Positions 43,125-46,582 of a DNA stretch of 64,000 bases are shown here, piece by piece. A program made the translations under genes and the position numbers. The DNA comes from Aestuariivirga sp. (lineage in GTDB: Bacteria > Pseudomonadota > Alphaproteobacteria > Rhizobiales > Aestuariivirgaceae), in NCBI RefSeq assembly GCF_020252405.1, contig NZ_JADCDA010000008.1, positions 1-64,000 of the forward strand, written 5' to 3'. Within the stretch, counting starts at the first letter, position 1. The number at the start of each line of letters is the position of its first letter. Below the pieces are notes generated by a model. It saw only the letters and a list, made by a program, of their open reading frames with translations, made no database searches and was not told the DNA's origin.

Positions 43125-43150
43125 GTACAAAAAGAGAACAAATACTCGAC
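43125..43150. promoter_or_regulatory. Tandem LexA-like half sites upstream of nrdJ
   Basis: GTAC (43125), GAAC (43136) and CGAC (43147) occur at exact 11-base steps, the spacing of the alphaproteobacterial LexA box GAAC-N7-GAAC. Only the middle half site is perfect; each flank departs at one or two bases. SOS control of nrdJ is therefore possible but weakly supported. Confidence 0.3.
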
Positions 43151-43197: not shown

Positions 43198-45438
43198 ATG
43201 GATATCCCCGCCCAACCGTCCCTCGCCCCTATCGCACGTGAAATATGGGCGATGAAATACCGTTATAGCCCTGGTGATGGCATGGAGGCCGAAACCGGGA
43301 TCGAGGACAGCTGGCGGCGCGTGGCGCATGCGGTGTCCGCCGCCGAGGGCTCCGATGGGAGGCTGGTGTGGGCTGACAGTTTCTACCGCATCCTCGAAGA
43401 CTATCGCTTTCTGCCCGCCGGCCGGATTCTCGCCGGGGCGGGCACTAATCGCCAGGTGACGCTTTTCAACTGCTTCGTCATGGGCCGCATCCCGGATTCG
43501 CTCGACGGCATCTTCATCCAGCTCAAGGAAGCTGCCCTCACCATGCAGCAGGGCGGCGGGATCGGGCATGATTTTTCAACCCTTCGGCCGCGCGGTGCGC
43601 CGGTGCGCGGCGTTGGGGCCGATGCCTCGGGACCCATCAGCTTCATGGAGGTGTGGGACGCGATGTGCAAGACCATCATGTCGGCGGGTACAAGGCGCGG
43701 CGCCATGATGGGCGCCATGCGTTGCGACCACCCCGACATCGAGGATTTTATTGCCGCCAAGCAACAGTCCGGGCGGTTGCGCAATTTCAATCTCTCGGTG
43801 CTGGTGACCGACGCCTTCATGGCGGCGGTGAAGGCAAAGGCGGAGTGGCCGCTGGTTTTCGAGGGCCGCACCTTCCGCATCGTTCCGGCTGCGCGGCTTT
43901 GGGAGCAGATCATCCGCGCGACATATGAGTATGCGGAGCCTGGCGTAATCTTCATTGACCGCATCAATGCGGAGAACAACCTCTCCTATTGCGAAACGAT
44001 CGGCGCCACGAACCCCTGCGGCGAGCAGCCGCTTCCACCCTATGGCGCCTGCCTGCTCGGCTCGTTGAACCTCACACGCTTCGTGTTGAACCCTTTCTCC
44101 CCGGATGCCTGCATTGATGAGTCCGCGTTGCGCCGCACGGCGGCGACGGCGGTGCGCTTCTTGGACAATGTCATCGATATCTCGCATTACCCCTTGCCGA
44201 AGCAGCGCGCCGAGGCATTCGCGAAGCGCCGCATCGGGCTCGGCATCACCGGCCTTGCCGACGCGCTCGTGATGTGCGGCTTGAACTATGGCGCCTGGGA
44301 GGCTGCTGAAGTGGCGCGTCAATGGATGGCGGCCATTGAACAGGCGGCCTATCGGGCGAGCATTGCCCTCGCGGAGGAACGCGGTCCATTCCCGCTCTTC
44401 GACGCCAGCCGGTTTGGCGCAACGGGCCATGCAGCGAGGCTGAGCGAGGAATTGCGCGGCGGCATTGCGCGCCATGGCCTGCGTAATGGGCTGCTGACCT
44501 CGGTGGCGCCGACGGGCACGATCTCCCTCATCGCGGGCAATGTGTCGAGCGGCATTGAGCCGATCTTCAGCCTGCGCTATGAACGGAAGGTGGTGCACCC
44601 CGGTGGCAGCACGCGCAGCGAAGCGGTGACGGACTATGCAGCCGCGCTTTACTGGCAGAAATACGGCGCCGATGCTCCATTGCCGCCGGCCTTCGTCACC
44701 GCAGACCAGCTGACACCCTCGGCCCATCTCCTGATGCAGGCGGCAGTTCAAAAACATGTCGACAGCGCGATTTCCAAAACCATCAACATTCCGGAGGACT
44801 TTCCATTCGAGGGCTTCAAGGACGTCTATGAGGAAGCCTACGACCTTGGCCTCAAGGGCTGCACCACCTATCGCCCCAATGCGGTGACCGGCAGCGTGCT
44901 ATCCAGCGCCCCGCCCAACCACTTGGCGGGGGCCGGCGATGACAAGCCGCGCCAGCGCGAGGAGGCGCTGCCCGGGATGACCTACAAGCTTCGTTGGCCG
45001 GAGTCCGGCCACGCGATCTACATCACCATCAATGACGTTGTGGAAGAGGGCGTGCGCCGGCCGTTCGAAATCTTCATCAACTCGAAAAACATGGAGCACT
45101 ATGCCTGGACTGTGGCGTTGACGCGCATGATCTCCGCCGTGTTCCGACGCGGCGGCGATGTGTCCTTCGTCGTCGAGGAGCTGAAAGCGGTGTTCGACCC
45201 GCGCGGCGGTCAATGGATGGATGGGCGCTATGTGCCGAGCTTGCTTGCCGCCATTGGCGGCATCATCGAGCAGCACATGATCGATTGCGGATTTCTCGAT
45301 CCAGGCCGTGAGAGCCTGGCTGTTTCCGGCTCAACAGCACGCAGCCACATTGCATGCCCGCGATGCGGCAATGCCATGCTGTTGTTCCAGGAAGGTTGCG
45401 CCACCTGCCTCTCTTGCGGCTATTCGAAATGCAGTTGA
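43198..45438 (+). CDS. nrdJ: Adenosylcobalamin-dependent (class II) ribonucleotide reductase
   Basis: The 746-aa enzyme makes deoxyribonucleotides using vitamin B12 and no oxygen. Recognisable parts are the N-terminal LFNCFVMG, with one of the active-site cysteines, and the NPCGEQPLPPYGACLLGSLN loop with the radical cysteine. TGTISLIAGNVSSGIEP and the GCTTYRPNAV block follow. The C-terminal zinc ribbon reads CPRCGNAM, then CATCLSCGYSKCS. GGAGG lies seven bases before the ATG at 43198. A longer frame from 43072 has no such site. It is immediately upstream of the LexA-box gene. Confidence 0.95.
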   Translation: MDIPAQPSLAPIAREIWAMKYRYSPGDGMEAETGIEDSWRRVAHAVSAAEGSDGRLVWADSFYRILEDYRFLPAGRILAGAGTNRQVTLFNCFVMGRIPDSLDGIFIQLKEAALTMQQGGGIGHDFSTLRPRGAPVRGVGADASGPISFMEVWDAMCKTIMSAGTRRGAMMGAMRCDHPDIEDFIAAKQQSGRLRNFNLSVLVTDAFMAAVKAKAEWPLVFEGRTFRIVPAARLWEQIIRATYEYAEPGVIFIDRINAENNLSYCETIGATNPCGEQPLPPYGACLLGSLNLTRFVLNPFSPDACIDESALRRTAATAVRFLDNVIDISHYPLPKQRAEAFAKRRIGLGITGLADALVMCGLNYGAWEAAEVARQWMAAIEQAAYRASIALAEERGPFPLFDASRFGATGHAARLSEELRGGIARHGLRNGLLTSVAPTGTISLIAGNVSSGIEPIFSLRYERKVVHPGGSTRSEAVTDYAAALYWQKYGADAPLPPAFVTADQLTPSAHLLMQAAVQKHVDSAISKTINIPEDFPFEGFKDVYEEAYDLGLKGCTTYRPNAVTGSVLSSAPPNHLAGAGDDKPRQREEALPGMTYKLRWPESGHAIYITINDVVEEGVRRPFEIFINSKNMEHYAWTVALTRMISAVFRRGGDVSFVVEELKAVFDPRGGQWMDGRYVPSLLAAIGGIIEQHMIDCGFLDPGRESLAVSGSTARSHIACPRCGNAMLLFQEGCATCLSCGYSKCS

Positions 45439-45442
45439 GGGC

Positions 45443-45475
45443 TTGACAGCCGGACTGTTTGTTCTATATTTGTTC
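45443..45475 (+). promoter_or_regulatory. Promoter with an embedded LexA (SOS) box
   Basis: A -35 TTGACA (45443-45448) and a -10 TATATT (45465-45470) are spaced by 16 bases. The box GTTC-TATATTT-GTTC (45461-45475) matches the alphaproteobacterial LexA consensus GTTC-N7-GTTC exactly and covers the -10. The ATG begins seven bases after the -10, so transcription would start at or next to the start codon. Confidence 0.8.
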
Positions 45476-45477
45476 GC

Positions 45478-45885
45478 ATGATGCAAGGCTTCCCCCTCTC
45501 TGCTTCCCTGCCCGAGGATCCCGGCCTCGGCGAACGCTTCTGGTACTGGCGCGGCGCTTCAGGCCGTGCCTACATCCACTCGATTTACCTTCCCGACCAT
45601 TGCCCGCCAGTTGCCGGGGCAGTCTTCGTCCTCGTCCGTAGCAGCGGCGGCGTGAGAACCGCGGTGTCGGTCGGTCGGTTTGGTGCCGATGGTCTTTGCC
45701 CCTCAGGAGCAGCGTCGCCGATGCCGGGCGATGAGATTCACGTGCATCTCCTGACCCGTGACGCCGATGCTGCCGAGGCCGTGCTGCATGACCTTGCCGC
45801 AACGCTGGAGGAGGGGGTGACTCCGCCGCGGGCCGAGCCGAAGCTTTGGGGAAAGCCGGTTCAGCTTGAGTTGCTGGCGGCCTGA
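45478..45885 (+). CDS. Small LexA-controlled protein of unknown function
   Basis: The 135-aa cytoplasmic protein is not a family I can name. Conserved-looking features are ERFWYWRGASGRAYIHSIY (residues 19-37), a VFVLVRSSGGVRTAVSVG strand pair (about 50-67), and EIHVHLLTRDADAAEAVLHD (about 86-105). No membrane segment or signal is seen. It lies 39 bases after nrdJ, but has its own LexA-boxed promoter. The start codon has no ribosome binding site, which fits a leaderless message. A second ATG directly follows. Its end overlaps the convergent ChaC gene by 25 bases. DNA-damage function is inferred only from the box. Confidence 0.75.
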   Translation: MMQGFPLSASLPEDPGLGERFWYWRGASGRAYIHSIYLPDHCPPVAGAVFVLVRSSGGVRTAVSVGRFGADGLCPSGAASPMPGDEIHVHLLTRDADAAEAVLHDLAATLEEGVTPPRAEPKLWGKPVQLELLAA

Positions 45886-46403
45886 AGGTCCAGCCGACGG
45901 GCGAGCCGCTCCAGCGCGGGGTCTTGGATTCTCATTTCGCGCAGATGAGCAATGGTGTTCTTGACATAGTCGGTGCAGTGGCCTGATGCGCCCTGACCGA
46001 GCCGCACATGGTGCTCCAGCGCATCGTCATCAAGCACGCCCGCATATTGCCGATGCGCGCGGTCCACGACATAGGTGGTTGCCTCAACTCTTTGGCCGCT
46101 GCCGATCAGCGTTACGGTCTTGCGTCTCTCGAGGTAGACCGACGTCACCTGTTCGCGCGCGCGGAGATAGGCAATGGTGTCTTCCCAGCGTTCCGCTGCA
46201 ACTTCAAACGCCACGCCGTGGCAGGAGCCACCACGGTCGAGGCCAAGAACCAACCCCGGCTGTTCCGGTGTGCCGCGATGAACGTAGGAGTAGACGCAGA
46301 GGCGGCGGTGATAACCGTGGACGCGCGCCGGCTCGCTCCTCAGGAAGGCGAAGCCCGGCCGCCACATCAGCGAGCCATAGCCAAAAATCCAGAACTGCTC
46401 CAT
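45861..46403 (-). CDS. ChaC-like gamma-glutamylcyclotransferase
   Basis: The 180-aa protein has the GGCT fold signature FGYGSLMWRPGF (about residues 7-18) and the ChaC blocks VHGYHRRLCVYSYVHRG, GLVLGLDRGGSC and the carboxyl region with YVKNTIAHLREM. The family breaks glutathione down to 5-oxoproline and Cys-Gly. The ATG at 46403 starts MEQFWIFGYGSLM. The upstream 200 bases, shared with the divergent DUF2125 gene, are mostly a mosaic repeat. Confidence 0.88.
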   Translation of the reverse strand: MEQFWIFGYGSLMWRPGFAFLRSEPARVHGYHRRLCVYSYVHRGTPEQPGLVLGLDRGGSCHGVAFEVAAERWEDTIAYLRAREQVTSVYLERRKTVTLIGSGQRVEATTYVVDRAHRQYAGVLDDDALEHHVRLGQGASGHCTDYVKNTIAHLREMRIQDPALERLARRLDLQAASNSS

Positions 46404-46420
46404 TCTGCCGATCTGACTAG

Positions 46421-46582
46421 AGGATGATCCGCAAAAGTGGAACCGCTTTTGCGACAAGATCATGCTCAAGCTTTTGATCTGGCGCAGGTTTAGGTTCAGT
46501 GGAACCGAAACCTGCTCTATCTCTATCTTTGGTCGCATTTTCGACGGTCAACCGGTGACCTCTTGACCTGAAAATGCTTTGT
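46421..46582 (+). repeat. Mosaic intergenic repeat, copy 4 (modules A-C)
   Basis: Module A (to about 46484) carries GCAAAAG paired with CTTTTGC. It is joined directly to module C (GCAGGTTTAG with CGAAACCTGC, then gtcgcattttcgacggtcaa and cttgacctgaaaatgct). Module B is absent. It fills most of the divergent region between the ChaC gene and the DUF2125 gene, so the promoters of one or both must lie within it. Confidence 0.9.

Follow-up and report, generated by a model that had tools for sequence, protein, structure and literature searches.

The Escherichia coli UvrC-homologous endonuclease Cho is a GIY-YIG-domain repair protein that is SOS-regulated. In the GIY-YIG superfamily, which includes the N-terminal domains of UvrC and AtGRXS16, R.Eco29kI and T4 EndoII, the signature residues comprise a hairpin motif, an arginine and a metal-binding glutamate (PMC9071465). 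The published LexA motif of Alphaproteobacteria is GTTC-N7-GTTC (PMC8565304, PMC12700426), and leaderless mRNAs, which this class often uses, make up 9.6% of Caulobacter genes (PMC4117421). Here we describe a gene that appears to join these themes. It lies directly after nrdJ, encoding a class II (B12-dependent) ribonucleotide reductase, in a 64,000-nucleotide stretch of Aestuariivirga sp. (NCBI RefSeq assembly GCF_020252405.1, contig NZ_JADCDA010000008.1, positions 1 to 64,000; hereafter, the window), and its promoter carries the GTTC-N7-GTTC motif of the alphaproteobacterial SOS regulon, which is also found at recA, imuA-imuB and ruvA in the same genome. We refer to it as the boxed gene. Its product resembles the GIY-YIG superfamily in predicted fold, in the order of elements, in an ANY/AVY hairpin and, mostly, in the G of YIG, but it has an extra N-terminal W-x-G-x-S-G-x-x-Y-x-H hairpin and an E-x-H-x-H strand, and it falls below Pfam cut-offs. 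Unlike Cho and UvrC, it has neither a match to the UvrC model (NCBIfam) nor the catalytic residues.

Operator, promoter and predicted transcript start

A preliminary description of this DNA, made from the sequence alone, had described a promoter (TTGACA-16-TATATT) whose −10 is covered by a perfect LexA box, with the predicted start of transcription at the start codon of a 135-amino-acid protein. All of these elements can be read directly from the coordinates (Table 1): the two hexamers are separated by 16 nt, the ATG (45478-45480) lies 2 nt past the box and its A is 8 nt from the end of the −10, and the predicted +1, 7 nt past the −10, falls at 45477-45478, with the 135-codon frame closing at a stop codon at 45883-45885. 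A lone perfect box in a window is about what chance would give and is not significant by itself, as the window holds three against 1.56 expected, and at least three occur in 20 of 100 shuffles. Of these three, only the box considered here has a core made up entirely of A and T.

The evidence for a functional operator comes instead from comparison among genomes. Of 61 related genomes, 51 have a homolog of the boxed gene, as do all 37 of the same genus; the relatives that bear one are Aestuariivirga-type Hyphomicrobiales, mostly metagenome-derived, and class-wide sampling indicates that the family is rare outside Hyphomicrobiales (7/387). The Aestuariivirga litoralis type strain (KCTC 52945) is among the carriers. 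The box stands at the same position in 30/30 same-genus loci first fetched, and was found at all same-genus loci read and in several other families. It is absent from the homolog in Hyphomicrobium-type genomes, where the upstream nrdJ often has one. The ATG lies exactly 2 nt past the box in 44 genomes from several families; these were selected for that spacing, so that what is informative is the number of genomes qualifying, the conservation of the spacer and of the −35, and the absence of a Shine-Dalgarno (SD) sequence. Anchored at the ATG, their alignment recovers a near-2-bit box with conserved core and spacer columns and a clear −35, with little conservation between the elements or upstream of the −35. 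Within the final 20 nt, none of the 44 boxed genomes has an SD-like core, compared with 18 of 40 unboxed homologs.

The same genome encodes lexA (180.9 bits), whose own box has one mismatch, and perfect GTTC-N7-GTTC boxes precede recA, imuA-imuB and ruvA (ruvC-ruvA). What was found, then, is an operator that overlaps the promoter and is conserved in orthologs, in a genome with lexA and boxed core SOS genes, as would be expected of an SOS-regulon member, and the boxed gene is almost certainly under LexA control. Its mRNA is likely to be leaderless or nearly so, a prediction that follows from promoter geometry. Taken together, the conserved box and spacing, the lack of an SD, the presence of LexA and boxed core SOS genes, and the published motif provide good support both for occlusion of the −10 by LexA and for a leaderless message.

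A variant of this arrangement occurs at four loci (L047, L048, L050 and L059), which have tandem LexA boxes, one (GTTCTTGACATGTTC or a near copy) over the −35 and the other over the −10, such that both promoter hexamers lie inside operators.

Predicted fold and loss of catalytic residues

The preliminary description did not recognize the encoded protein as a known SOS protein, and family models agree: it has no match in Pfam, NCBIfam or PHROGs. Searches by sequence returned only chance-level matches in the PDB and none in phages. A GIY-YIG relationship was suspected, before any structure, from a hairpin (ANYILV...LxIGRT) in distant members. The AlphaFold model of the window protein has a core with predicted local distance difference test (pLDDT) values mostly of 80-93, and its best structural match (VIA) is the GIY-YIG domain of AtGRXS16 (Z 5.5, the next match 2.9). 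For the model of the Hyphomicrobium facile homolog, the top ten structure matches are all GIY-YIG (Z 7.9 to 4.8), including AtGRXS16 (7.9), UvrC (6.2), R.Eco29kI (5.2) and T4 EndoII (4.8), followed by unrelated structures at 4.5 and 3.5.

Intermediate sequences connect the boxed family to conventional members of the superfamily. A Bradyrhizobium barranii plasmid protein (WP_231146028.1, annotated as a GIY-YIG nuclease family protein) shares 32% identity with the Hyphomicrobium homolog (E 6e-17). It resembles the boxed protein in its W-x-G-x-S-G-x-x-Y-x-H hairpin and GA-x-E-x-H-x-H strand, but differs in retaining the full Y, Y, R, H, E, N set and in sitting among insertion sequence elements on a conjugative plasmid. 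Together with a second intermediate (L206), which has no relatives within its own neighborhood, it combines a W-x-G-x-x-G-x-[WYF]-x-x-H hairpin and an E-x-H-x-H strand with an intact ANY...YxG...R...H...E...N set, and the intermediates overall have intact or near-intact ANY...YxG...R...E...N sets. The boxed gene product thus very probably adopts a GIY-YIG fold, an assignment that draws on two AlphaFold models and this chain of intermediates rather than on a curated profile. The Bradyrhizobium gene with the intact residue set (L243:2932-3363, NZ_CP088103.1) is flanked by IS110 and IS91 transposase genes, and its annotated start is apparently too far downstream.

The boxed clade has lost much of the canonical active site. 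The YIG tyrosine, the arginine and the glutamate are kept in 0 of the 20 members sampled, although the alignment is uncertain at the arginine column, and the asparagine is mostly lost; in the window protein, Ser64 stands in place of the YIG tyrosine and Leu103 in place of the metal-binding glutamate. Hyphomicrobium-type proteins keep the glutamate in 22 of 23 cases, but not the YIG tyrosine. Despite these losses, W24, E86, H88, H90 and D105 are retained across the boxed clade, and the last four occur without exception in the 20 boxed proteins sampled and in almost every other member as well. Given the loss of canonical catalytic residues, the boxed protein probably does not cut by the GIY-YIG mechanism. 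A non-cutting protein is the simplest reading, with a remodeled active site as its main rival. That catalytic residues were lost while the LexA promoter was strictly kept suggests that the protein regulates rather than cuts.

Candidate role and alternative explanations

These observations are consistent with a model in which LexA, bound to the box, would block the −10 and keep the promoter shut until RecA-driven LexA cleavage. Transcription would then start at the ATG or within 1-2 nt of it, the leaderless mRNA would be translated, and the gene would be induced alongside its neighbor nrdJ, which has its own LexA-like box. The small GIY-YIG-fold product may act as a DNA- or fork-binding adaptor and, where a C-terminal motif is present, could be tethered to the beta sliding clamp, there modulating polymerase access or protecting stalled forks. 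We give this reading as a whole (a DNA-damage-induced, probably non-cutting GIY-YIG protein at the clamp or fork) a probability of roughly 0.45. In a bolder version, a nuclease-dead GIY-YIG domain, tethered to the clamp, would have taken on a new use as a fork or polymerase-exchange factor, and would be induced as one unit with a B12-dependent reductase that is itself under LexA and would raise deoxynucleoside triphosphates (dNTPs) for repair synthesis. Such a protein would represent an undescribed class of SOS effector, and we consider this version doubtful.

The clamp component derives from the tail, which is predicted to be disordered. The bacterial clamp-binding consensus is QL[S/D]LF, in which positions 1, 4 and 5 are the most important (PMC3919608). 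A clamp-like motif occurs in 20 of 54 boxed homologs, compared with 2.6 in shuffled tails (maximum 9 in 2000 shuffles), and a strict form in 15 of 92 homologs, compared with 1 of 495 C-termini of neighboring genes; both sets of figures are descriptive, since the patterns were written after the tails had been seen. Diverged members have tails with QIDLF, QVDLF, QPSLF, QPGLF or QSELF. Clamp tethering via a putative C-terminal Q-L-x-L-[L/F] tail has about even odds, in this lineage and several others.

Several points weigh against the proposed model. The structure-match Z values are all below 8, Foldseek on the window model returned only noise with no significant E-value, the Pfam GIY-YIG model (PF01541) has no hit to the window protein and is sub-threshold even for the intermediates, and an hhalign comparison with local GIY-YIG proteins placed the hairpin correctly but with weak support (P 0.03). 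By sequence, 53 boxed proteins lack the glutamate and one has it, and 38 unboxed proteins have it, but on the tree box and glutamate loss come down to about three changes, an association without independent replication that we therefore do not count as independent support. In the tail, QLELL fits the clamp consensus at positions 1 and 4 but not at position 5, where L replaces F, and the motif counts are inflated by near-copies. The motif is also missing from more than half of the boxed family, so that clamp docking is not a family-wide function. Computation supplies the box, its geometry and conservation, the fold, the residue losses and the tail motif enrichment; induction, binding to DNA and clamp, lack of cutting and physiological role are what we infer from these. 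Finally, the invariant E86, H88, H90 and D105 could form an alternative active site.

This last point leads to the alternative of an active SOS nuclease, in which H34, E86, H88, H90 and D105 would bind metal in place of the lost residues and the enzyme would process damaged or branched DNA. The invariance of four of these residues in the absence of the classical ones favors such a role, as does the fact that GIY-YIG folds, including the structure matches recovered here, are nucleases (PMC9071465). However, the Bradyrhizobium intermediate has H34, E86, H88 and H90 as well, beside an intact classical site; they therefore probably predate the loss and may be structural. Further, we know of no GIY-YIG enzyme that uses a site remodeled in this way, and we regard an active nuclease as rather unlikely.

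It is also conceivable that the protein is a partner or regulator of NrdJ that serves dNTP supply in damaged cells. The preliminary description had proposed a role in nucleotide supply or replication stress based on the position next to nrdJ, and suggested that orthologs be checked for the box and for this link. The box is indeed kept, nrdJ adjoins the boxed gene in many Hyphomicrobiales families, and joint induction would be expected from the LexA-like box of nrdJ. The link itself is less constant: five same-genus genomes (L047, L048, L059, L060 and L061) lack nrdJ between ftsX/plsC and the boxed gene yet keep both gene and box, and in several genomes of other families the homolog follows ftsX/plsC without nrdJ. 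A second, longer class II reductase is encoded elsewhere in most genomes, and class II reductases also occur in genomes without the boxed gene. The five nrdJ-less genomes and the common second reductase indicate that the boxed gene is independent of this nrdJ, and the nuclease-type fold points to DNA rather than to a reductase partner. We consider a dedicated NrdJ partner clearly unlikely; the connection between the two genes is a common regulator rather than a demonstrated common function.

A role as an accessory to the ImuA-ImuB-DnaE2 translesion complex, with recruitment through the clamp, would fit both the clamp-type tail and the LexA-boxed imuA-imuB of the same genome. However, three genomes that are 97-100% complete (G002, G014 and G015) keep the gene and box with no ImuB homologue at E 1e-20, a result limited by contig gaps and by that strict cut-off, and several genomes have ImuB but not the boxed gene. 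The three genomes without detectable ImuB make an obligate ImuB partner less likely, and an accessory role of any kind appears very unlikely. That the match to the box arose by chance, with the gene outside LexA control, is extremely improbable and was rejected: perfect boxes are near chance per window and only about twofold enriched genome-wide (83 vs. 46 for the reversed control), but the box recurs at all 30 same-genus loci, and its position, A/T core and promoter geometry are conserved over the 44 genomes with diverged flanks.

In the open-access literature, we found no paper that describes the boxed gene, that reports LexA control of this nrdJ or that names either as a member of the SOS regulon. 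Identification of the boxed gene, which encodes a degenerate GIY-YIG protein under LexA, adds a conserved, unannotated gene to the Hyphomicrobiales SOS response; DNA binding is predicted from its fold and a site of action from its tail. With its operator over the −10 and no leader, the promoter would also be a clean natural system in which to study leaderless translation induced by damage.

Gene neighborhood and nrdJ

The gene order ftsE-ftsX-plsC-(nrdJ)-boxed gene-chaC-...-tyrA-hisC is conserved well outside the genus. The LexA-like motif of nrdJ is conserved among relatives, with a −35 (CTCGAC/TTGAC) shortly downstream of it, and stands directly 5' of nrdJ at ten further loci (L126, L129, L130, L132, L134-L137, L140 and L145) as well as in the window. 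It has one mismatch in the window and is perfect in Hyphomicrobium-type genomes; a perfect box precedes nrdJ in 20 of 34 genomes with an unboxed homolog, compared with 0.55% of control stretches. These patterns suggest SOS control of the B12-dependent reductase, by which dNTP synthesis might be raised during DNA damage. The unboxed homolog in these genomes mostly lies about 170-300 nt downstream of nrdJ, and might come under its control.

Table 1. Features of the boxed gene and its surroundings, in window coordinates
Feature	Position	Strand	Basis and remarks
−35 element TTGACA	45443..45448	+	Read from sequence; TTG[AC][CA] 18-19 nt 5' of box in 39/44 aligned genomes
LexA box GTTCTATATTTGTTC (GTTC-N7-GTTC)	45461..45475	+	Core columns 2 bits, spacer columns conserved too (44 genomes)
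−10 element TATATT within LexA box	45465..45470	+	4/6 columns 91-98% conserved
LexA-boxed gene, 135 aa, degenerate GIY-YIG-fold protein, predicted leaderless mRNA	45478..45885	+	
Folded core, residues 20-111	45535..45810	+	AlphaFold blocks of 80-93 pLDDT; W24, H34, F50 (GIY Tyr place), S64 (YIG Tyr place), G66, E86, H88, H90, L103 (catalytic Glu place), D105
Putative beta-clamp-binding motif QLELL in disordered tail (QLELLAA)	45862..45876	+	Consensus QL[S/D]LF; tail pLDDT <50
nrdJ, short class II (B12-dependent) ribonucleotide reductase	43198..45438	+	TIGR02504, 578 bits; likely start ATG 43198 behind GGAGG
nrdJ LexA-like box, GTACAAAAAGAGAAC on +	43125..43139	-	One mismatch from GAAC-N7-GAAC (GTAC variant); just upstream of CTCGAC −35
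chaC, gamma-glutamylcyclotransferase	45861..46538	-	PF04752, E 8e-40; convergent, overlaps boxed gene 3' end by ~25 nt; conserved context

The source genome itself encodes two distinct B12-dependent reductases, a long one (G000:C35:23894-26275, in a frame of ~1280 codons) and the short one in the window (43198-45438).

Other boxed loci in the genome

Three further boxes in the same genome have features of their own. At ruvA, the box GTTCTTGACTTGTTC lies at the end of ruvC (L195:2036-2090, G000:C10), includes a TTGACT hexamer and is ~40 nt before ruvA. The imuA box GAACAAAAAGTGAAC (L200:1990-2010, G000:C70) starts with the base that follows the frame's first ATG, so that either the imuA start or the promoter layout may need revision. 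Lastly, the box GTTCCTTGTATGTTC stands ~27 nt before a gene with a SocA/Panacea domain (PF13274; L196:2085-2672, G000:C12), which is a possible SOS-controlled antitoxin-like gene.
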